Of a stretch of DNA of 64,000 bases, positions 26,094 through 48,892 are shown one piece after another. The position numbers were made by a program, and so were the translations under genes. Origin of the DNA: Spinacia oleracea. Its lineage: Eukaryota > Streptophyta > Magnoliopsida > Caryophyllales > Amaranthaceae. Position 1 is the stretch's first letter, and every line of letters starts with the position of its first letter. Where the stretch lies: contig NC_079492.1 in the NCBI RefSeq assembly GCF_020520425.1, forward strand, positions 145,669,861 to 145,733,860, written 5' to 3'. A model generated the notes under the pieces. The model ran no database searches. It saw nothing but the letters and a program-made list of their open reading frames with translations, and had not been told where the DNA came from.

Positions 26094-27498
26094 GTTTATT
26101 GTGATTATTAAGAACCATAAATGGTGAAATCCTCACATTTTTCCTCCTTTCTATTCTCCCTTTTTCATTTTTACCACATTAATCGCCTCTTGTGCGTTTC
26201 ATCTTTCTGCTAATTAATTTCCTCCTTTTCTCAAACTTTTCACAAACTTTTTTAATCTTTGAGGTAAAATTATCAACATTTTAACTTGAAGGATGAAATG
26301 ATCCATGGTACTATTATCAATCCTAATGCACTGAAACGATGTGCTTTTATCGAAAAGAAGTGATTTCTTCAGAATTTTGAGGTACGTTGGTGTTACAATC
26401 AATCCATCATACTCCGTACAACACTCATTTTCCACAGATTAATTCTTTAAAATCACTAGTTCTTTTTTTTGGTGGAGAAATAAAATTTAGCTGCCCATTC
26501 GGTGTTAATTTGAGGATGAATGTGTTGTAAATCTAACAATTTTTTCTCGTATACCGGATTATTATAAATATTAGTTAGATATTAGTATCGAAAAATATCC
26601 GTAGCATGCATGATTGAAATTTTATTAAGAATTAACTCGATCTAGGACATTTGTAAAAGTGCGAATCATAATGTTCAAAAATCTATTGCCAGAAAGTTAT
26701 TCATGTATGTCCGAATTATAGTTTTTGAATCACAATTATTAAGACAATAATTTTCTAGGTACAATGTACCCAATTCATTGCAATCCCTTTTTTCTTTTTT
26801 AAAATTTTAGTTTGCGAATGAGCTACAAAGGTGATACAGATAACAACGTGAAGTTTTAGATGATAGAATGTCACATTTTAAATGTGTTTGGTAGACTGTA
26901 ATGGACTAATGCACTACGTAATAGATTTGTGGATAATTTTGTACGTAAGAACGTGCTAACCATTTTTTGGGCAATAAACGATCATGGTCATATTCATATA
27001 AGAGTTGGTGCACTTGGATCAAATCAAGATCAATCTAACGTAACTAGTTCCTTATCATCCTTAGTTACAATACCGCAATTTGAATTATACATTGTGCACC
27101 CTGATACACATTCATTTAGAATCTAATGAACACGGATAATGATTTCATTGTACATGTACAAGTCGAATATTTGAAATATATGTTTTTGGGTTTGAACTAT
27201 ATGTTCATTTGCTATTTGTTCTTTGAGTATGAATAATATGTTCTTTGTATTTGAACTATATGTTCATTTATAAACAGGGTGCACAGTAAGTATTGTGCAC
27301 CCGGGTACATAAATCATATTTTGGTAACAACACAATTAACATATCATAGATAGATTAATACAATTTTACCTAATGCATTAACATCATTTCAGGATCAATG
27401 CACAAGAACACTTGAAGATTTTGGATTATTTTGATATTACTTCTTCTTATCAACAAACCAAACTCAATTAATCATAATCATAACCATAATCATAGAAA
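22767..27498. other. Intergenic between divergent HIPP and PMT genes
   Basis: No gene recognised. A tandem duplication of about 160 bp (CTGACCGACTTGACAA, GTGGTTAAGTGAGG, GGAGGGTGCCTA) lies at 23285-23449 and 23449-23603. A degenerate TIR element is possible at about 24455-24815. Poly-T runs at 25551-25612, (ATT)n at 26046-26095, and a GGGTGCACAGTAAGTATTGT/GCACCC hairpin near 27278-27302. Confidence 0.5.
26046..26095. repeat. (ATT)n microsatellite
   Basis: About 50 bp of ATT/TTA triplets. Confidence 0.9.
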
Positions 27499-30400
27499 AT
27501 GGCAAGGGAACATGGAGGAGGATCTCCAAAACCCCATTACCACACTGAAGCAAAACGAAAACGCCTGACTTACATATTTGCAGTAAGCAGCCTCTGTGTT
27601 CTGTTCTACATCCTCGGCGTCTGGCAAGGCAAATCACCCAGCTCTGTTGCCAACAAATTCAACCTCCAATCCAACAACAACAACAACGATTGCACAAACA
27701 ACAACAACCAATCCCCTGAATTGTCAACAACAACAACAACAACAACAACAACATCAAATCTAGACTTCGAAAGCCATCACCAGTTAGAATTAAACGAAAC
27801 AAACGAAGCAGAAATCAAAGAGTTTCCCCCCTGTGACATGTCATTCAGTGAGTATACACCATGCCAAGATCCAAGAAGGGGCAGGAAATTCGACCGTTAT
27901 ATGATGAAATACAGAGAAAGACATTGTCCTGTTAAAGAAGAGTTGATGCAGTGTCTTATACCACCTCCACCAAAGTATAAGACTCCATTTAAATGGCCTC
28001 AAAGTAGAGATATTGCTTGGTATGATAATATTCCTCATAAAGAACTTAGTATTGAGAAGGCTATTCAGAATTGGATTCAAGTTGAAGGTGATCGTTTTCG
28101 GTTTCCTGGTGGTGGTACTATGTTTCCTCGTGGTGCTGATGCTTATATTGATGATATTAATAAACTCATTCCATTGACTACTGGGAGTATTCGAACTGCT
28201 ATTGATACTGGTTGTGGGGTAAGTTATTACATAAACTTCTCTTGTTTGATGTGTAGTCTTTTCTTAGCTAGCTTTTGATCTCATGATGCATTTGTGTTTT
28301 ACAAGTTCTTTTGTGTTAGTTTAAGAAACAAGACCACATTGTTTACGATAAGTAAAACAGACCTTAAAGGCTCTATTATCTTCACCTTATTCTTATTGCT
28401 TCTTAGATCAGATCAGACCAGACCAGACCAGACCAGAAAAAGTAAAATACACTCGCATAAGACATTCAGATCAGACCAAACTAGAAACTCAAAAAACCTA
28501 ACCAAACCATGTGAGTAGAACAAAGCCATTGACACTGGCTGTGGGGTATGTAATTACAAAAACTTCTCTTATTTCATGTATAGCCTTTCCTTAGCTAACT
28601 TTCGATCTCATAATGGACCTGTGTTTTAAGAAATTAAACCACGTACACTATTAACGATAAGTGAAACCGGTTTTAATTTACCTAAAGGCCTTGTTCTCTT
28701 ACATGGTCTGGTTTTCTAGTTTATGGTATGCTTTGATCTGGTTTGGTCCGAATGTTTTCTATGTGTGATTTTTGCTTTTTGTGGTCTGCACTGAATGTTT
28801 TTCATGAGTGATTTTTGCTTTTTCTGGTCTGGTTTGGTTTGATCTAACTTTTTCTAATAAGCAATAAGAATAAGGTGAAGAGAACAAAGCCTAAGAACAA
28901 CAAACACGTGTAGTTTATCTAGTTTCTGTCATTTTTCGATTCTTCTGTTTCTGTTTTCAGACATCTGAAAACTGAAACCAGTATATACGTAAACATTCAT
29001 TGATTACCACCTTTCTTAAACAAACTTCAGATTCAAAGCAACACTATTAGCAATAAGGAATGCAATCTAGCTAAGCTGAGTGACTAATTGATTCCCACTT
29101 CCTTAAAAAAGTGTATACATATTATACAACAGCTTGAATCATTTATTTATTTGTTGGATGATGAAGGTTGCAAGTTGGGGAGCTTACTTATTAAAGAGAG
29201 ACATTGTTTCAATGTCTTTTGCACCACGAGACACACATGAAGCTCAAGTGCAGTTTGCTTTGGAGAGAGGAGTTCCTGCTATGATTGGCATCATGGCTTC
29301 CCAGAGGCTTCCTTATCCTGCAAGGGCTTTCGACATGGCTCACTGTTCCCGTTGTTTGATACCCTGGAACAAAAACGGTATGTTTTTTTCTTAAAATCAT
29401 CAAAAAATTGAAGAAAACAGTAGATAATAGCAGTACATGCAGTTGTTTGATTGACAATAACACAAGTTAAAATTACAATGAAGTATGGCAAAAACTGACC
29501 AGACCCCAGAATGACCTAAAACACTAGGTCTTGAACAAGATTTTGTGACCTGTAACCCGATTTTATCCGAATCGGAGCAACCAAAAAGTAATGGGCCAAA
29601 ACCCAATTTGAACATGTTTTTGACCCGACTGATTAAAAATCATAGTATTTATAGTAGATCATGAAGAATTTTAAGTATAGCAAACACGTTGTTGTTAATA
29701 TTGTTGGGTGTAATATGATTTTAATTTGAATTATACGTCATTTTATAGTTGAATTTGTTTAAATATAAACTTGTGTAGGAAAAATTTGTTAATTTGTGCC
29801 CATATATTTATTACCTAATTAATGAAAATACAATACGTGTTTAAACTCTTTCAACCCTGGGTTGACCCGAACTCGAAAGTTTTGGGTCTTGAACAAGCAT
29901 TTGTAAACCTGAACCCGAACAATGTTTTTCAACCCGACCAACCCGTTTGACAGATCTATATGTGATTGATATGTGTATTTAAACCTCTGCAGATGGATTG
30001 TATCTGATGGAAGTGGATAGAGTGCTAAGGCCAGGAGGTTACTGGATTCTTTCCGGACCTCCAATCCGCTGGAAAAAATACTGGAGAGGTTGGGAAAGAA
30101 CTCAGGAAGATCTCAAACAAGAACAAGATTCAATCGAAGATGTTGCAAACCGTTTATGCTGGAAAAAGGTCATTGAACAGGGTGATCTTTCCATTTGGCA
30201 GAAACCCTTTAATCACATTGAATGTATAAAGAGCAAGAAAACTCATCCAACCCCACATATTTGCAAATCAGACAACACAGATGCTGCATGGTATTACTCT
30301 AAATTACAGTTTCTATCTTTCATCCTAAGTTTACTCCTGAAATAATTCTAACTTTTTCCTGGTTTGTCAATGGAAAAAGGTACAAAGATTTAGAGGCTTG

Positions 30401-31701
30401 CATAGCACCATTGCCAGAAGTAAGCAACTCAAATGAAGTAGCAGGTGGAGCTCTTGAAAAATGGCCTGAACGCGCACTCGCTGTACCTCCTAGAATAAGC
30501 AGCAATTCTGTTCCTGGAATTTCTGCTGATAAATTCAGAGAAGACAATGATTTGTGGAAGGATAGAGTTGCATATTATAAGAGGATTGTTCCTCCTCTAC
30601 CACAAGGAAGGTATCGTAATGTGATGGATATGAATGCATACATGGGTGGTTTTGCAGCAGCTGTTGTTAAGTATCCTGTTTGGGTTATGAATGTGGTTCC
30701 TGCAAATTCTAATCCTGATACTCTTGGTGTGATTTATGAGCGCGGTTTTATTGGAACGTACCATGATTGGTGTGAAGCGTTCTCTTCGTATCCAAGAACT
30801 TATGATCTTATTCATGCTGGTGGTGTTTTCAGCATCTACCAGGACAGGTAATCAATCCCTCCCTTACTTAGTACTAATGAATTCGGGGGCTGTTTGGTTG
30901 GGGTATTCAAGAAAGGGAAGGGAATGAGCAGGATTCATTTCCTTTGTTATTGTTTGGAACACCATTTCAATCATTCCCTTTACCCTCTCTATTCCCCAAA
31001 CTCCTCCACCTTGATTCCACCCAATGGTTTTGTATTCCCTTTCCCCAGGTAGTCTGAAAGGGAGTTTGGAGTCAGACTCTTGAAATAATTTGGTAAAAGA
31101 CTTTGACAACTGTGGACGTGAGTTTGAAAATCCAAGACTTACTCAAGACTCGACTCTACTTATGTTTTTTTCTCCAACCAAATTAAAAAATCATGCCACG
31201 TCATCAAACTTTTTCCTATTTAATAATAGGGAGAGTCTTGTGTGAGTCTGAATAATGAAAAAGTACGTAAAAATAAGTGGAAAGCTAATGTGACAAATCT
31301 AGAGTATGAGAGATAAACTCACCCTTATAGCACTGGAAAACAATTGCCTACCACATAGACTCTCAGTACATGCAGCCGACCCAATCTCTTTGTGTATTAG
31401 CCTATGCTTTTGTTGTTCTTATAGAAACTTTTTTTTTGCTAAGCAATGTTTTTTGTTTTGGTTTCGAAGGTGTGATATTACCTACATTTTGCTCGAGATG
31501 GATAGACTGCTAAGGCCGGAAGGAACAGTGATATTCCGAGACACAGTAGAAGTTCTGGTGAAGATTCAAGCAATCACCAAGAGAATGAAGTGGAAAAGCC
31601 ATATTGCAGATCATGAAAGTGGCCCCTTCAACCCTGAGAAAATTCTGGTTGCTGTCAAAACATACTGGACAGGCGGCGATGCACCTGAGAAAAACAGCTA
31701 A
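27499..31701 (+). CDS. Probable methyltransferase, PMT family (PMT15/16/18-like), five exons, 642 aa
   Basis: Exons are 27499-28218, 29167-29377, 29993-30290, 30380-30847 and 31470-31701. All junctions are GT-AG and the total is 643 codons including the stop. The protein is a type II membrane protein: a short basic cytosolic tail, one membrane segment at about residues 24-42 ([17 protein letters not shown]), a low-complexity Asn/Thr stem, then a double methyltransferase domain. The first half carries [16 protein letters not shown], the SAM-binding motif AIDTGCG (residues 234-240, ending exactly at exon 1), [20 protein letters not shown] and [10 protein letters not shown]. The second half carries [15 protein letters not shown] and [14 protein letters not shown]. 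Family members are Golgi proteins implicated in methyl-esterification of wall polysaccharides, with QUA2 as the best-known relative. Length is usual for the family. Introns 1 and 4 hold MITE sequence, and intron 1 also holds a duplicated exon fragment. Confidence 0.95.
28198..28692 (+). repeat. Tandem partial duplication of exon 1 end plus intron start (PMT gene)
   Basis: Sequence at 28198-28366 is repeated with roughly 80-85% identity at 28525-28686. The first copy is the real 3' end of exon 1 plus the donor and start of intron 1. The second lies inside intron 1 and still reads AIDTGCG followed by GGGGTATGTA, a usable-looking donor. The differences within these seven codons are all synonymous. 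Each copy is followed by the same kind of TTA/TAA-flanked MITE edge (AAAGGC), so the duplication probably included part of a MITE. Confidence 0.75.
28367..28891. mobile_element. PIF/Harbinger-like MITE sequence in PMT intron 1
   Basis: The left part (28367-28510) and right part (28686-28891) share inverted sequence: CTTCACCTTATTCTTATTGC on the left and its complement at 28860-28880. GATCAGACCAGACC runs occur on the left and GGTCTGGTTTGGT runs on the right. Boundaries adjoin TTA/TAA. The middle is interrupted by the duplicated exon/intron segment, so the element is compound. Exact ends are uncertain. Confidence 0.55.
30885..31050. mobile_element. Fragment of the GGGGGCGTTTGGTT-type MITE in PMT intron 4
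   Basis: It begins GGGGGCTGTTTGGTTGG and shares the block ATTTCAATCATTCCCTTTA with the complete element at 34296-35173. I find no matching right terminus, so it is a truncated relative. The following bases to about 31320 resemble another repeat, also seen at 39070-39230. Confidence 0.6.
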
Positions 31702-32422
31702 AGATTAATTAGTTCATAAACAAAAAAAATTAACAGTGGCAATTAATCTTAGATAGACAATATCAGGGTATTAAAAACTATAGGATTCCTGATTAATCAA
31801 TCTTGTTGCATGATGTTGTTTCACATTGAGTAAGTCAGTGGAAACAGATCAGAGTAGAGTTAGACTATTCCAATTAACCTCAGGTGAAAGCATTAGTAAA
31901 TGCTCACTTTTTGGATTTGTTGGTTTATTGTTAAGCAAATTTTGGTTGCTTCTTTATTAGTAACATTCACCATGTCAAATATACCTTATTTCTTCAGGGC
32001 GCGTCCTGATTTGTCCTTGCAGTACCCTTTGAGAAATGTGTATCATACTTATCATTCATGCTTGGTGTATAATCGTCATGTTTCTTCACACCCTAAACGA
32101 AAAGAAATTATACTTAAAAATTAAATCGTAACAATTGCTTGAAATAAGAAAAATAAAATAGTCTTGTTTGTATCTTGCAAAGTACAACCGGTTGTATAAT
32201 AAAAATTGTCTTATTATTTGTGATTGTCTTGCAAAGTACAACCGGTTGTATACTAAAAATTGTCCCCTTTTTTTTTTTTTTTTTTTTCTAATCTTTGATT
32301 CTTTGTTTGACTACAATTAAACAAAAACTCCCTTTCTTGTACTAAATATTTCCTTTGTTTTGACTGCTCTAATTAAACAAGAACCATCTTTCTTGCACTA
32401 AACATTTTTTCTCAGGGAAGTA
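31702..32422. other. Intergenic region between PMT and PPR genes, with two short tandem duplications
   Basis: This holds the PMT 3' flank and PPR 5' flank. A block TCTTGCAAAGTACAACCGGT occurs at about 32172 and again at about 32227 (55 bp offset). A second block, ATTAAACAA.AACC/TCC..CTTTCTTG, occurs at about 32315 and again at about 32372. A run of T lies at 32270-32287. No TATA box stands out. Confidence 0.6.
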
Positions 32423-34132
32423 ATGCAAAGAACACTCTTCAGAGCACTTGAAAATCACTTCCAAAATTACAATCTTTTTCTTCTTTCTCCCTCCTCTACC
32501 TCTAAAACCCCAATCAGCTTTACCCGTAGAAACCATACTCATGATACTGGAGTGGAATTTTCTGGGGTTCGCGAAACAATCAGATGGGAAACCAACCCAG
32601 ATGGTTTTACATTGGTACAGATGATTCGAAACTGTATCAATCATAGATATGTTTCTCATGGAAAACAGCTTCACTGTTATGCTTTGCAATCTGGGTTTGC
32701 TTCAAATGTCTACGTTAATACAGCTTTGGTTAGCTTTTATGCCAAAGTTGTGTCTTTGGATGATGCACACAAACTGTTTGATGAAATGTCTCAACCAAAT
32801 GTTGTCTCTTGGAATTCTATAATTTCTGGGTATGTACATTCTGGGAATTTGTATAAAGCTCTATCACTCTTCCTTGAGCTTAATCAATCTGACCTCCTAC
32901 CTGATGCATACTCTTTTACTTCTGCATTAGCTGCGTGTGGTCAGTTGAGTTTGCTGCTATTAGGAATGTCCATACACTCGAGAATAATTCTTTATGGACT
33001 AGAATCAAGTGTTGTTGTGGCAAATTGTTTGATTGATATGTACGGGAAATGCAGTTCTGACGATGGTGCAATTCATGTGTTCAATGAGTTGAAATACAAG
33101 GATGTAATTTCATGGAATACAGTTATTGCAGCGTGTGCCAGAAATCGAAGGCTAGAACTAGCATCTGACTACTTTTATCAGATGCCTTACCCTGATACCG
33201 TCACATATAATGAAATGATTAATGGTATTTCACAGTTTGGCGACATAGATGAAGCTATTAAGATATTGAAGAGCATGCCAAACCCGAATTCATCATCATG
33301 GAACGCGATTATATCAGGATACGTGGTAAAAAACAGAGCATGGGAAGCTCTTAATTTTTTCACTCAAATGAAAGCAAGATCAGTAGTTATGGATGAATTT
33401 ACATATTCAAGCATTTTGAGTGGGATTGCGTGTATTTCAGCTCTACGGTGGGGTACATTACTCCATTGTTGTGTTATTAAACAAGGTTTGGTTACTTCGA
33501 TGATGATCGGGAGTGCACTAGTAGACATGTACTCGAAATGTGGGCAGGTAAAAGATGCAGAAATGTTGTTTCAGTTCATGCCCAGAAAAAACATTGTTAC
33601 TTGGAATGCATTAATATCTGGTCTTGCAAATAATGGGGAATCACACAAGGTAGTTCAATATTTCGAGGAGTTGAAAGATGCAAAGGGATTGAAACCCGAT
33701 GATATCACTTTCGTGAATGTTTTGGCAGCTTGTTCGCAATGTCAAATGCCATTGGAGAGAGCTTACGAGTATTTGATCTCCATGAACGATGATTATGGAA
33801 TTAAACCAAAGCCTAATCATCTAGCTTCTATTATTAGACTTATGGGACACCATGGACAGCTATGTAAAGCTGAAAGTATGATTTATGAATTAGGGTTTGG
33901 GTCATGCCCGTCTGTTTGGCGGGCTTTGCTTGGTGCTTGTGGAGCTTGTGGGGATTTGGATGTTGCCAAGGTTGCAGCTGCAAAGTTGAGAAGATTAGAG
34001 GATAATGAGGTCGGGTATGTAATTTTGTCGAACATAAACAAAGATCGAGGCAATTGGGTTGATGCAACTGCTGTTTGGGATCTGATGAGAGATGAAGGGG
34101 TGGTAAAAGAAGCTGGCTTTAGTCGAATATAG
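32423..34132 (+). CDS. Pentatricopeptide repeat protein, PLS class, E subgroup, 569 aa, intronless
   Basis: A single uninterrupted frame. After an N-terminal segment of about 60 residues that could act as an organelle transit peptide, repeats run from roughly residue 75 to 480. Typical motifs are NVVSWNSIISGYVHSGNLYKA, DVISWNTVIAACARNRR, SSSWNAIISGYVVKNRAWEA, IGSALVDMYSKCGQVKDAE and NIVTWNALISGLANNGESHK. The C-terminal part (PSVWRALLGACGACGDLDVA through YVILSNINKDRGNWVDA to EAGFSRI) is an E motif and stops before any DYW domain. Such proteins bind organellar RNA sequence-specifically and, in the E subgroup, usually guide C-to-U editing with a partner. Possibly orthologous to At5g47460, from memory and not checked. 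Only about 720 bp separate it from the PMT gene upstream. Confidence 0.92.
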   Translation: MQRTLFRALENHFQNYNLFLLSPSSTSKTPISFTRRNHTHDTGVEFSGVRETIRWETNPDGFTLVQMIRNCINHRYVSHGKQLHCYALQSGFASNVYVNTALVSFYAKVVSLDDAHKLFDEMSQPNVVSWNSIISGYVHSGNLYKALSLFLELNQSDLLPDAYSFTSALAACGQLSLLLLGMSIHSRIILYGLESSVVVANCLIDMYGKCSSDDGAIHVFNELKYKDVISWNTVIAACARNRRLELASDYFYQMPYPDTVTYNEMINGISQFGDIDEAIKILKSMPNPNSSSWNAIISGYVVKNRAWEALNFFTQMKARSVVMDEFTYSSILSGIACISALRWGTLLHCCVIKQGLVTSMMIGSALVDMYSKCGQVKDAEMLFQFMPRKNIVTWNALISGLANNGESHKVVQYFEELKDAKGLKPDDITFVNVLAACSQCQMPLERAYEYLISMNDDYGIKPKPNHLASIIRLMGHHGQLCKAESMIYELGFGSCPSVWRALLGACGACGDLDVAKVAAAKLRRLEDNEVGYVILSNINKDRGNWVDATAVWDLMRDEGVVKEAGFSRI

Positions 34133-40448: not shown

Positions 40449-41056
40449 TTACTTTTCTTATAAATTGTTTATCCTATGCTCCCAAGTCTCAGCAAATACT
40501 TCTATCATTGCATACGTTCATTGTCACAAATATACACGAAGTATTAAATGGTGATTGCATGACTTCTTTTTTTTTTGTTCAAACCACATGACTGATTTTT
40601 TTATTTTTTTTCTTTTTTTGCATGATGTAATTTTGACCGGAGTGGGAAATTAGATAAATGAACAGAATCGGCGAACTTTTTAATTAGGTTACAAATTTTT
40701 GGGCAAAAACCGCAAATTATTTTGTGCATTTTTCTTTTGGAAATCTCCTTTTAGCGACGAACTTTTAAATGAGCTTGCGTCGACTAATACGTAGTACTCC
40801 CTCCGTCCCGGAATACTTGACCTGTTTTCCTTATCGGGCCGTCCCTTAATACTTGACCTGTTTCTAAAAATGGAAATATTCTAACAATATTATATTATTT
40901 CTTACTCCACCCCTATTAACCCACCTACCCCCTACTCCATACAAAAAATAATTAAAAATTCAACCCCTACTCTCCCCCAACCCCACCTCTTAACCCACCT
41001 CCCACTAACTACATTAAAATAATACTCCACTATCAACTACTACCTATTAAATTAAA

Positions 41057-43314
41057 CGGTTTTTTCATGAAATGCCCCTGAGGTTTGCAAAAACGCACCA
41101 AATACCCTCGCGTCTTTTGAATCACATAATATACCCCTATTTTTTCATACTGTTCATGAGATGCACTTGGAGTTAACGGACGTTAGTCCTCCGTTAGCTG
41201 CAGTTTACCATTTTGCCCTTAATATATATTTTTCGACCTAAAATCAAAAAAAAAAAAATCTCAAACTTCTCTCCAAACTCTTCCTTCGATTCCCTAACCT
41301 CAAACATATCTCCCTTTCCGATTTCCATGGCGAACCCACTTCAATTCTTCAATTCATTTCACTTTCCTTGGCCTATCTAATCACACCGATTTCCCTTCGA
41401 ATTCGATTCAACAATTTCCCAATTCATCTCTCAAGTCGATTAAATCGCTCAAGTTGCACAATTTTTCAATTGTTACTGATTCCGATTTGGGGGTTATTTC
41501 CCAGTTCATCACAAATTTGGAGGAGTTCTGAACATTTCAACCGTATATGGGGATCAGATTCAACAGGGGATAGTGCTGTTGAATTAGATACAGTTCCTGC
41601 AATGTATGGAATAGTTCTCAAGTTCTCATCCTCAGCTCCATATGGTTCTATACCATCATATCATATCCCATTTCTTCTTGGCGAATCGGCTTTTGAGATC
41701 CCCCACAAGAAAGAGTCATTGGACATTGTCCCAGCTGGAATTCAGTCCAATGAAAAGTCAGTTTCTAGTTCACTTGTTACCATTGAATTGGAACCCCGAG
41801 AACCTGTGCCAGGTCTTGTGGATGTTTCCATTAACGCGAATGCAGAAAATGGTCAGGTTGTTAATGGGAAGCTTCAGGGGGTCTCAGTTGGCATCGAGGA
41901 CATGTTTCTCAAGGCTGCTGCCCCAGCTGAGATTCTAGAAGACACAGTTCCAGGATATTACTCCGCCCTTTTTGATGCTTTGTGGGAGGTATGTGGTGCC
42001 TCTTCCAGTGCAGGTCGGGAAACATTTTCACTAAAAGGAGGTAAGGGGTTTGCAGCAATCCATGGAACACAATCAGTTAAGCTTCTCGAAGTTCCTTCAA
42101 CCTTAGCAATTCGTGTTGTTGAAAGATATTTAGCCCCCTTTGTTGTTGGTGTGATTGGTAGACCTCTGGTGGAGGTTGTGAAGGACGGTGGCTTAATCCA
42201 GGATGTGGCATGGATAGATATGTTTTCAGGTTCTGCTAATGAGAATAACTCGGTTGCGAATTTTGATGGTGGTCCACTATATTTGACATACTTTGAAAAT
42301 GAAGATGGTAAGATCAACATTGGTAAGACAAACATGGGTTGCTTTCTTGTGTTGATATTCCTACCACCCAGGTATCATCTTCTCTTTCGGATGGAAGTTT
42401 CTGATATTTCAACATTGGTCCGAATTAGAACAGATCACTGGCCTTGTTTAGCCTACATTGATGATTATTTGGAAGCTCTTTTTTCTTTGTAACCGGGGTT
42501 AGTCTTTTCTGCTGCTATATACTCATTCCATTGAGAAAGGAGTATGTTCTGTTCTCTTTTGTTTGCGTTACAGCAGTTGGTTACATATTTTCTGTTCAAA
42601 TTCTTTTCCCAGATTGTTTTTTACTTGGGAAAATATTCTTTTTGCATCAGAAATAAAAAAATGTATATATTCTAGTGTCAATCATTCACCAGCTGCACTT
42701 TTGTACAAGAAATTTATACAATCAGTTCTGAGAGGTGAAATACTTGTATTTTGGTTGTATACTTCTCTGAGAGTATGATGTTAACATGTAATTCTACAAT
42801 TAGTGTTTAGCTTCTGGCTGTTTGGTTGTCAGGTGCCTTTTGTTTCGAACTTCAGCTGAGATGTGAGATCATTTGATCAAAATCTAACGAAGGCCCAATA
42901 TGTTATACTTGTATGTTTTTTGTTAGGATTCTGGGTATTGTTCCTTGATTAAGAATCAACAAACTATACAAGCAGCAAGTTTGGATGAAGAAAACATGGT
43001 TGTTACGCAACTTTCTTTCTTTTGATAGTATAAAACTTACTGGACTAGCCATTTGAATCAAATTCTGCCGTTTAAAAGCAGTTTGGGTATTTCGTGCAAA
43101 TAAGTTTACAAGTAGGTGTATATTGTGTAATACGTTTATAAATAGGTGCATTTGATGAATTATAAACATGACTTAACGGAGGACTAACGGAAGGTCGGCT
43201 TAGGGGTATTTGGTGCAAACTTAGGCAAAAATAGGGGTATATTATGTGATTCAAAAGACGCGAGGGTATTTGGTGCGTTTTTGCAAACCTCAGGGGCATT
43301 TCATGAAAAAACCG
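41057..43314. mobile_element. Pack-MULE carrying a TPLATE gene fragment, 9 bp TSD
   Basis: A 2,258 bp element with perfect inverted repeats of 88 bp, starting CGGTTTTTTCATGAAATGCC and containing CACCAAATACCCTCGCGTC. It is flanked by identical 9 bp duplications TAAATTAAA (41048-41056 and 43315-43323). Long identical TIRs plus a 9 bp duplication identify a Mutator-like element. No transposase is present. The interior instead holds the C-terminal coding region of TPLATE. Identical TIRs and TSDs imply a recent insertion. Confidence 0.92.
41368..42492 (+). CDS. Captured TPLATE C-terminal fragment, open for 374 codons
   Basis: From about residue 80 (YGIVLKFSSSAPYGSIPSYHI) to the end (RIRTDHWPCLAYIDDYLEAL) this matches the C-terminal quarter of TPLATE, the large subunit of the plant endocytic TPLATE/TSET adaptor complex (about 1,160-1,180 aa in full). 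Clear landmarks are VTIELEPREPVPGLVDVS, GVSVGIEDMFLKA, LKGGKGFAAIHGTQSVKLLE and NMGCFLVLIFLPPR. Residues 1-79 have no TPLATE similarity that I recognise and may come from another source or from noncoding sequence. The first ATG of the frame is 41368; an upstream ATG at 41328 leads only to a short frame. There are no introns across the fragment. The reading frame is intact, so recent capture or selection is possible. It lacks the beta-adaptin-like trunk, so it cannot replace TPLATE. Confidence 0.8.
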   Translation: MAYLITPISLRIRFNNFPIHLSSRLNRSSCTIFQLLLIPIWGLFPSSSQIWRSSEHFNRIWGSDSTGDSAVELDTVPAMYGIVLKFSSSAPYGSIPSYHIPFLLGESAFEIPHKKESLDIVPAGIQSNEKSVSSSLVTIELEPREPVPGLVDVSINANAENGQVVNGKLQGVSVGIEDMFLKAAAPAEILEDTVPGYYSALFDALWEVCGASSSAGRETFSLKGGKGFAAIHGTQSVKLLEVPSTLAIRVVERYLAPFVVGVIGRPLVEVVKDGGLIQDVAWIDMFSGSANENNSVANFDGGPLYLTYFENEDGKINIGKTNMGCFLVLIFLPPRYHLLFRMEVSDISTLVRIRTDHWPCLAYIDDYLEALFSL

Positions 43315-43548
43315 TAAATTAAATAAGTCAATTCAAGCCCCTTAAACTCTGTGCCGGTCAAACCGGGTCGAGTATTCCGAGACGGAGGGAGTAGTACTCT
43401 ACGTCCAAATATTTGGCAAACCAACAAATAGAAGATGTTGAACTAATTCAACTTCCTTTTGGATTTGATTCTGTCTGTTTTGTTGTTCGCATCATTACTA
43501 CTTCGTACATAATGGAAAGACTTCTTGGGATGAGATTTCATAACTAAA

Positions 43549-45830: not shown

Positions 45831-46937
45831 CTAAAAATATATGAGTTGAGTTAAGGTGAAAACGACGATCCATAACCCGAATACTGTCCTTCTGCCACCG
45901 TCACCGGCGCCGCTGTTAAAAGTTTCCTGATCGGACTCCAACAAAGACCCGTAATTAAAATTCGGGTTTGACCCGTATAAAGCTTGGACTCCTTGAACAT
46001 CATCAACCCGTAAATCCACTTTCCGGCTCCTCGGTCTCAAACTCGGGTACATGATAGCATCACTCACAGAAGAATGGGCCAACCCGAGCACGTGACCTAT
46101 CTCGTGCGTAGCTACTGATTCCAAATCAATGGCCACCCTAGACCGTTCTCTTTGAAAATCAACGGCCCAAGTTTCAGCTGCGTCTAAATGAAGTCTTCCA
46201 TTTTCCGGTGAAAAAGCATGGGCTAAAACTCCGAGTTCGCCGTCGAACGGTTCTCCGTCGCCGTGATCGCCGCTATGGAACCCAATACGGATATCAGCCA
46301 TACGATAATTTTGTATCTCTGTGAAATTTACGAGAATAACCTCGGACCACCGTGAAAAGGCGCGTGCGAACACCGCCCGGATATCTTCCTGACTGATGTA
46401 AGCAATCGTATCGTCCGGCGAAAAAGAATAAGTCAAAGTCATCGGTGAAGACTGACTCCACCGTGGTTCCCCGTTAAAGAAGGCGTAACGACGCGTTTGG
46501 TGGAGGCGGCTGGCAGTGGAGTTATGCATATGGGAATCGCCGAGGCCGCAACGTGGGGCCATGATGAGGTCAATAGTATCGTTATCGAGTTTTCCGGTGA
46601 CTGGTATACCGAGGTTCCTTTGATAAGTTAAGATGGCGGATTCGAGGTCGGAATCAAAGTCATCGGAGAAGTTCCCGGGGGCCGGTGCCGGGAGGTAGCC
46701 GAAGTGGTTGAGATAAGTCTTGAGATCGCATATTCCAGTGACGTGGCTTCCTTTCTCGAGGTTGGCAAACTTTGCAAAGTTGCCCCACGGGGTGGAGGTG
46801 GTGGAGTTGAAGGCGGAGGCGGTGGTGGCGTCAAAGTTTGGGATAGTTGGTTGCGGGAAAGTTCTGGCGGGAAAGGCTGAAGGTAGTTGTAATAATAAGA
46901 TGAAGAAGAAGAGCGAAAAGGGTAATAGAAAGTGCAT
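45831..46937 (-). CDS. Matrix metalloproteinase (plant MMP, M10A), 368 aa, intronless
   Basis: A zinc endopeptidase of the apoplast or cell surface. In order: signal peptide (about 1-23, LLPFSLFFFILLLQLPSA), a propeptide with a peptidoglycan-binding-like fold (about 55-127), the cysteine switch PRCGLGD at 128-134 that keeps the zymogen latent, and a catalytic domain (about 150-322). The calcium/structural zinc segment is HSGDHGDGEPFDGELGVLAH (221-240). The catalytic motif HEIGHVLGLAHS is at 278-289 with the three zinc His and catalytic Glu, and the Met-turn AIMYPS is at 294-299. The C-terminus ends in a hydrophobic stretch (FGLWIVVFTLTQLIYF) after Ser/Gly-rich sequence, as expected for a GPI anchor. 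There is no hemopexin domain, as in all plant MMPs. Length and single-exon structure fit the family. All key residues are present. Confidence 0.96.
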   Translation of the reverse strand: MHFLLPFSLFFFILLLQLPSAFPARTFPQPTIPNFDATTASAFNSTTSTPWGNFAKFANLEKGSHVTGICDLKTYLNHFGYLPAPAPGNFSDDFDSDLESAILTYQRNLGIPVTGKLDNDTIDLIMAPRCGLGDSHMHNSTASRLHQTRRYAFFNGEPRWSQSSPMTLTYSFSPDDTIAYISQEDIRAVFARAFSRWSEVILVNFTEIQNYRMADIRIGFHSGDHGDGEPFDGELGVLAHAFSPENGRLHLDAAETWAVDFQRERSRVAIDLESVATHEIGHVLGLAHSSVSDAIMYPSLRPRSRKVDLRVDDVQGVQALYGSNPNFNYGSLLESDQETFNSGAGDGGRRTVFGLWIVVFTLTQLIYF

Positions 46938-48892
46938 GGCTAACAGGCTAAGCTAAGATAAAAGATGATCAAATGATCAAATCCAAAAAATGGGGAAAGT
47001 TAGTTATGTTGGAAGTTGAGCCTTCAAAATCTTATTAATTGTTAAGGTTTATAAGGAATGTTTTTAAAAAAAATTGGTGAAAATGAGATGATTAAATAAA
47101 TAAAAATGAGTAAGAGAAGAATGTGGGGAGGGTGGAAGCAACCATTTGGGGTTTAATTTGAAGGAGAGAGAAAGTTAGGAAGATTCTGCCGTGCTTTGAA
47201 TTATCAATTTTCAAAAAATGGGGATTAAGCAAAGGTTGATGATCTAATCAAGTATGGTGGGTGAACAAACTACTGTGTTAGGAATTCACTTCGTATATAT
47301 TAAGTACTTTCTATATTTTAGTTTGTCTCATTTAATTGATTTGCTACAATTATCGATCTGTCATTAACCATTCAATTATTCAACGCACATCTTTAACCAT
47401 TGTTACTATGTAGTATGTACTTGATCAAAGAAACCAATAGCGTAACTAAAAAACAAAATAATTTGGCGGTCAGAACCCTGATATCATAATAGTGGCATAA
47501 TTTTGGATTAGAAAAGTAAAATACATAGTACAATAATTAAAAGATATATCAATGTTGGATCTTCTAAGATAGCATGCTATAGACTATGTGATGAACTTTG
47601 AACAAGTATAAGAAATTAGTAAAATAGTTTAATATAGTTGCATCTGACTCTGTTTATTGTTGACCAAATTTTATAAAAAGTAATCGTATGACAATAATTG
47701 ACAAATTCTAAGACTAATAGTGGATGGATATTACATACTTCGTATTATTAAGGGTTAGAAAAATGGTGATTAAAGAAGACTTTTGAACAAGGGTTTTGGT
47801 GTAAGGGTTTTTTTGGATGACTTGTCAAACACGACAATTCCATGTATGTATGGTCTTTTGGGGGTAACTTTAGATTAACGGTTTTATGTCTAAATAATTT
47901 TGAGATGGGATCAGCGAGTCAAGAGGCATGGATTTGATTTCCTGACTGTAATGTCGTCCAAGTTCTTTGTTAGTCGTCTCTTATTACTCGCATGAATAGG
48001 AGAAATTTCCGAGTAACCCTTTAATTTTTTTAATTACATTTTTTTTCTGTCTTATTTTACTTTTGGACCTTTGTAGTCAAATAATGCATTATCAATGATA
48101 ACACAATTATACGAGATTTATTTAAAACAAAAATATTTCATTAAATTACAACAATAACATAGAAATAGTACGTGTATGTAACTACATACATTTGTTCATG
48201 TACACCTCGATCATAACCACTACTTAACAAATTAACATCCGTTCTAATTGGCTTTAATTTCCAGTAGGGGTGGTTCACGGGGTGGGTATGAGGTGAGCGA
48301 CGACACGTAGCCTCAAATTTCAGATATAATATTATTAGTTTCCTAAGTATTAAACAAAAATAAAACTCCTGTCAAGCGACAACTGGATAGGCTTTTCTGC
48401 AGGTGTGTTATTTATAAGGTTGATCGAGAGCAGGTGCAGGAGGAGCATGATTGTACAAGGAATGCAGTTCAATGCAGTCTGGTTTTATTTTTGTTTTTTC
48501 TTTCTTGTAATTTTCCTAAATGTCAAAAAAAAAAAAAAAAAAAAAACTGAAATAGCGGTTAATTTAAGGTGGTGTTATGTTAAATGTAATACTCAAGGAC
48601 ATGGGTACGTACGATGCTTAACAAACTCTTTTTTTTATTCTCCTTCCCTTTTTTTTTCCTTTAATTGAATATGGACCTCATTTTGAGAAATTGCACATGG
48701 CCTTTACTAATAACGTTAAAGTAGCTCCGACACTGTTGCCTGACAAATTTCATATTCCCCGTGAGAGTCGATAATCGTCTCCGGTCACCAAGGGGAAAGA
48801 TGAGAGAATCGGTGCTTTTCTTACATGATATCCTCTTTAAACATATATAGTTTCAAATTGTAAGTTATGATAATATATATATATATATATAT
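46938..48892. other. Intergenic upstream of the metalloproteinase gene
   Basis: No gene recognised beyond the candidate TATA box. A pure A run of about 21 bp at 48526-48546, after TTTCTTGTAATTTTCCTAAA, could mark the tail of a processed or SINE-like insertion, but I cannot define its start. Confidence 0.4.
47048..47053 (-). promoter_or_regulatory. Candidate TATA box of the metalloproteinase gene
   Basis: The minus strand reads CCTTATAAACC about 112 bp upstream of the ATG at 46937, a reasonable distance for a TATA box with an 80 bp leader. No other TATA-like element is closer. Confidence 0.4.

Follow-up and report, generated by a model that had tools for sequence, protein, structure and literature searches.

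The closest described counterparts of the element reported here are the rice Pack-MULEs, which combine MULE ends and a 9-bp TSD with fragments of host genes, are amplified, and may be chimeras of two genes. Rice Pack-MULEs prefer the 5' ends of genes. Among MULE-derived putative genes, 5-10% have been assigned at least two parents (PMC4858842), and 36% of rice Pack-MULEs are multicopy, as cited in PMC8277862. For animal Pack-TIRs, the latter source describes gap filling and FoSTeST template switching, with microhomologies of 1-36 bp (median 2), and calls it worth exploring whether these models hold for Pack-MULEs. A tandem-insertion model, made for Pack-CACTA, has been extended to Pack-TYPE elements of all DNA superfamilies (PMC8903248), and a further account allows that an undiscovered mechanism for such captures may exist (PMC13317346). 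How plant TIR transposons acquire unlinked gene pieces is still debated, to judge from the competing models set out in these three sources.

The element lies in a 64,000-nucleotide stretch of Spinacia oleracea DNA (NC_079492.1, positions 145,669,861 to 145,733,860), hereafter the window, to which bare coordinates refer. It shares with rice Pack-MULEs every feature listed for them above, with the difference that its captured piece is the 3' end of a gene, against the 5' preference in rice. A second difference is that, in spinach, pre-capture siblings, the donor gene and post-capture copies survive together in one genome; the cargo swap is therefore polarised and its junctions are readable. Animal Pack-TIRs offer parallels in filler from another chromosome (in some of them), in short microhomology and in multiple copies with distinct TSDs (PMC8277862), whereas here the element is a plant MULE that was already loaded when one segment of its cargo was exchanged. 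Common ends enclosing new inner DNA recall the products of the tandem-insertion model (PMC8903248), from which the spinach case differs in that the 34.7 kb read around the donor gene show no flanking siblings. The element is thus ordinary in kind, being a chimeric, multicopy Pack-MULE, and its before-and-after record of capture is unusually complete and clear. No cargo swap of this sort in spinach was found among the titles listed in a literature survey, which is no proof of absence.

The element and its insertion site

The limits proposed for the element in a preliminary description, 41057-43314, proved exact (2258 bp), as did the perfect 88-bp TIRs (100% identity) and the perfect 9-bp TSD. 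The parts of the locus are as follows.

40797-43391 (40797-41056 and 43324-43391): MITE, presumably Stowaway-like, split by the Pack-MULE (inverted ends; uninterrupted copies)
41048-41056: left TSD, TAAATTAAA (sequence; a single occurrence in each of the eight empty sites read)
41057-41144, + strand: left TIR, 88 bp, perfect (100% against right TIR)
41145-41260, + strand: MULE subterminal sequence common to siblings (the element's first ~167 bp are 83% like the transposase-bearing locus L053)
41261-41523, + strand: LRR gene fragment (parent at C6:149.74 Mb), shortened here by a 321-bp deletion
41524-41527: AGTT microhomology marking the 321-bp deletion that only the window copy has
41524-42492, + strand: AP5B1 C-terminal coding fragment, open; 322 codons and natural stop (Pfam; comparison with parent)
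42493-42995, + strand: AP5B1 sequence 3' of the stop, co-linear with parent (2 differences in 503 bp)
42992-42995: 3' junction of the capture, with AAAC microhomology
42996-43226, + strand: 3' subterminal region of the element, common to 11 siblings
43227-43314, - strand: right TIR, 88 bp, perfect (100% against left TIR)
43315-43323: right TSD, TAAATTAAA (sequence; empty sites)

When the flanks are joined without the element they form a MITE of ~330 bp with inverted ends, from which we take it to be Stowaway-like; its outer limits, 40797 and 43391, were placed by eye. Within the same genome, all 40 uninterrupted MITE copies scored (1135 candidates) cross the insertion point at 98-99% identity, and each of the eight such loci read carries a single TAAATTAAA. 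Since the empty copies hold the target once, insertion and duplication are here matters of observation and not merely of deduction. By the same 98-99% identity of the 40 scored copies, the MITE family that was struck itself looks young.

Three genes were noted in the vicinity: a matrixin-type metalloprotease ~2.5 kb from the element (45831-46952, - strand), a PPR protein with an E motif (32402-34132, + strand), and the exons of a Methyltransf_29 gene (27496-30851, + strand).

Identity of the captured gene

The fragment scores 43.7 bits to AP5B1_C (E 4.7e-11; Pfam cut-off 21.9), and among solved structures, with E values up to 1 admitted, it matches the AP-5 beta-1 subunit alone (E 0.001). The AP5B1_barrel family stays below threshold, at 20 bits and at 18.5 bits in the parent frame (Pfam cut-off 21.9). 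A six-frame search of the genome with the fragment returned six places, of which five are elements and the sixth is a locus on C2. Two open frames upstream at the C2 locus encode the AP5B1 middle domain (57.8 and 47 bits; cut-off 24.5), and a far larger share of the gene is therefore present at this locus than in the elements. No Pfam family is matched at 0.01 by the initial 160 residues of its front frame. On these matches the cargo is identified as a C-terminal fragment of AP5B1, the beta-1 subunit of AP-5, a complex of late-endosome retrieval.

The preliminary description had read the fragment as the C-terminus of TPLATE. AP5B1 and TPLATE are both adaptor-like large subunits, but there is next to no chance that the fragment is TPLATE, given the Pfam assignment and the AP5B1 middle domain in the parent. 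A TPLATE C-terminal region, provided that the letters used for it are right, shows no similarity to the fragment that the comparison could detect; it belongs to another Pfam family and finds its own locus on C3, not C2. A TPLATE locus can thus be placed, as had been proposed, yet it is not the parent, which is the longer AP5B1 gene on C2. The measurements change accordingly: the 295 matching codons become 322 codons of AP5B1 (41524-42489), and the 374-codon frame could not be reproduced, the frame being 416 codons from stop to stop (41242-42492) with an ATG-started ORF of 296. It does run to the gene's natural stop, as described, the gene being AP5B1.

Siblings that preceded the capture

A family search with the first 264 bp of the element as query, in which 40 of 1972 candidates were scored, yielded 30 loci. 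These comprise five copies bearing AP5B1, 11 siblings without it, five older relatives, and nine loci that match at the termini only. The siblings are 1573-1739 bp long and agree at 98.6-99.9% with a full AP5B1 copy over 782 bp on the left and 323 bp on the right. All 11 have perfect 9-bp TSDs, every one different. The older relatives reach 92-96% in the left part.

In the place of AP5B1 the siblings carry a 620-bp middle, which is complete in five, complete with a short repeated stretch in three, and interrupted by an inner gap in three. Most of this middle, from both halves, is matched at 89-98% by three of the five older relatives (L030, L031 and L033); a fourth (L034) matches its first part only, and the fifth (L032) has no match to it in the sequence compared. 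Short pieces also occur in two of the nine terminal-only loci (L035, L036). The presence of the middle in older relatives indicates that it is ancestral and that AP5B1 replaced it, and AP5B1 as the ancestral cargo was rejected on the same grounds. Copies showing that the fragment predates the element would, by the preliminary description's own test, have spoken against its reading; the outcome favours capture, with 11 siblings lacking AP5B1 and a longer AP5B1 gene elsewhere. A LINE origin for part of the sibling middle, where a motif was thought to be recognised, was set aside, two peptides having no Pfam match at 0.1.

One sibling, L019 on C4, has a 1-base deletion in common with the four of the five AP5B1 copies that could be compared, the window copy having lost the stretch. 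This suggests a close link between L019 and the AP5B1 copies, although the base lies in a T run, where the deletion could recur.

An earlier capture from an LRR gene

The front part of the frame had been thought to differ in origin and the element to be a chimera; so it is, with MULE sequence and an LRR piece preceding AP5B1. The parent of this left cargo is an LRR gene on C6 (L052), open over 600 codons and with LRR families reported by Pfam. An F-box-like start of this parent, a mere impression, was not reported by Pfam. The captured LRR fragment, whole in L019, is identical to the parent at 539 of 608 aligned positions (89%), with 27 gap positions, a divergence that makes the LRR capture far older than that of AP5B1. 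Both cargo pieces are in the same sense. The 'MANPLQ...' start was considered as a native gene start and rejected, the long frame of the LRR parent reading this stretch differently. Elsewhere, two decayed LRR copies with stops (C2:9583956 and C6:76193958) are 58% like the captured fragment and possibly represent older captures.

Copies, age and junctions

The AP5B1 cargo of the window copy spans 41524-42995 (1472 bp: 322 codons, the stop, and 503 bp). Over this length the five copies, which stand at five places on C1, C5 and C6, differ from the parent by 3 (window copy), 2, 2, 3 and 4 bases, which bears out the view that the insertion is very young. Sites specific to the window copy are the A at 42958 and the deletion scar at 41524-41527. 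In the C1 copy, 1483 of 1486 bases are identical to the parent, one of the three mismatches falling at the junction. The frame is open in all five copies. Only one codon of the coding part differs from the parent (P/S at fragment codon 70), leaving a Ka/Ks comparison without power.

Seven private substitutions over the five copies correspond to roughly 43-80 thousand years, and the two shared differences from the parent to 52-97 thousand years, at assumed rates of 1.3e-8 and 7e-9, respectively for the lower and upper figure; the 95% Poisson ranges together extend from 6 to 350 thousand years. The rate of 1.3e-8 is one used for rice (PMC4858842).

Perfect TSDs flank three of the five AP5B1 copies (the window copy, L008 and L011), although that of L011 consists almost wholly of one repeated base and, taken alone, is weak evidence. 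In L009 (C5:4893000-4902900) the duplication is imperfect, TTGATTAAA against TTGATATTAAA, and a TSD looked for at L010 (C6:142274000-142283900) was not found. These two contrast with the siblings, whose TSDs are perfect in 11 of 11. Plain transposition therefore does not cleanly explain every copy; the two sites may have been damaged after insertion, or the elements may have arrived there in some other way.

Donor and recipient share TTT (3 bp) at the left junction, which survives only in the four longer copies, and AAAC (4 bp) at the right. In 200,000 trials with breakpoints placed at random, 3 bp or more were shared in 6.2% and 4 bp or more in 2.1%. Short microhomologies at these chance rates favour template switching without proving it. 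The window copy is 322 bp shorter than the 2580-bp copies. Of these, 321 bp were deleted between two copies of AGTT, a repeat of 4 bp or more having a chance of 2.2%; the lost stretch reaches a few bases into the AP5B1 piece, and the remaining base was placed in an A run. Intron loss through reverse transcription was rejected as the cause of the shorter copy, the missing 321 bp being LRR-derived and bounded by AGTT.

Origin of the capture

It is very probable that the Pack-MULE was assembled stepwise, an LRR-loaded element having had its middle swapped for AP5B1, spread, and suffered a deletion. The starting point was an ancestral element with the LRR piece and a 620-bp middle of other origin, as found in siblings. 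In one copy this middle gave way to 1.48 kb of the AP5B1 3' end. The product of that step is at hand; as for the process, a break within the element was probably repaired from a template, with synthesis switching to AP5B1 at TTT and returning at AAAC. The new version now stands at five places, with transposase probably supplied in trans by a 5.1-kb MULE family with the same ends. The window copy, for its part, lost its 321 bp between the AGTT repeats, and it sits in the MITE with its 9-bp duplication. It is in our estimate an even call whether the family preserves a complete natural record of one capture, with recipient class, donor and product all nearly unmutated, from which it would follow that such elements renew their cargo by template switching guided by microhomology, an inner segment being exchanged within an existing element and nothing being inserted at the donor gene.

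Two other routes deserve consideration. Under tandem insertion and remobilisation, two siblings would have come to flank the AP5B1 3' end, the inner end of each would have been deleted, and the outer ends would have mobilised the gene piece. The retained parts, 782 bp on the left and ~320 bp on the right, could indeed stem from two copies, the siblings being too alike to tell. However, neither a family end nor any part of L019 or L053 was detected at E 1e-3 or better around the captured stretch in this genome, over 26.5 kb on its upstream side and 6.7 kb on its downstream side; the parent on C2 accordingly stands without flanking family ends in 34.7 kb, as expected for the donor of a Pack-MULE. 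Tandem insertion would also call for two insertions and two deletions against one repair event, and one of these deletions would have to end within the AP5B1 coding frame. We therefore regard it as unlikely.

Copying of an AP5B1 transcript into the element would suit a piece that is the coding 3' end running past the stop, and the common sense of both cargo pieces. The match is nevertheless co-linear with genomic DNA, extends 503 bp beyond the stop and has no poly-A tail at the junction, so that this route is very hard to credit. Where the piece is coding, the parent has an uninterrupted frame, and hence offers no intron there against which RNA-based capture might be tested. The family provides a polarised and very recent capture with exact breakpoints, at whose known loci the rival models predict different, checkable outcomes. 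Resequencing of 305 spinach accessions has been reported (PMC8668906).

Possible products

In the 416-codon frame the first in-frame ATG, at 41602, is an internal methionine of AP5B1. It is preceded by six ATGs in the window copy and by 11 in the full C1 copy, which makes a protein product unlikely; the dominant C-terminal peptide once envisaged finds no support here. A functional chimeric gene, acting through an AP-5 beta C-terminal peptide or through small RNAs that interfere with AP-5, might be argued from the open frame of all five copies and from a near-identity that would match the parent transcript. With the frame of the window copy opening at an internal methionine behind upstream ATGs, we consider such a gene improbable. 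The piece is, moreover, so young (one codon differs) that no conclusion on selection can be drawn from its open frame. The element is most likely a mobile, selectively near-neutral gene fragment which might, at the very most, give rise to small RNAs against AP5B1.

The MULE family and a transposase-bearing relative

The exact terminal 32-mer occurs 393 times in the genome (198 forward, 195 reverse) and not once in a backward control. Among the matches listed (100 of 393), at least five facing pairs are separated by 5142-5187 bp. One such pair delimits L053 (C1:70908880-70914060), a 5.1-kb locus with the same 32-nt ends, flanked on both sides by TTAAATCAA, a perfect 9-bp TSD read by eye. L053 encodes MULE (6.7e-10), DBD_Tnp_Mut (6.9e-10) and SWIM (1e-9) domains by Pfam, and its two ends, over 171 and 237 bp, are 83-84% identical to the full AP5B1-copy query. 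The transposase of L053 is divided among separate reading frames, perhaps because of introns or decay. The one ORF scanned in the window element has no transposase domain in Pfam. Taken together, the ends, the duplication and the relatives establish the window family as MULE, and the designation Pack-MULE, already given in the preliminary description, is upheld by the TIRs, the TSD, the ends shared with L053, and a host gene parent that is unlinked.

Some further features of the family were noted. On its opposite strand, L053 contains a 136-codon GRF-zinc-finger-like frame that scores below the Pfam cut-off. At least four more facing pairs, again among the matches listed, have about the spacing of L053. 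Exact family ends also face each other ~15.6 kb apart in two places, C1:88464225-88479881 and C1:105530186-105545781, which could be large elements or adjacent insertions.
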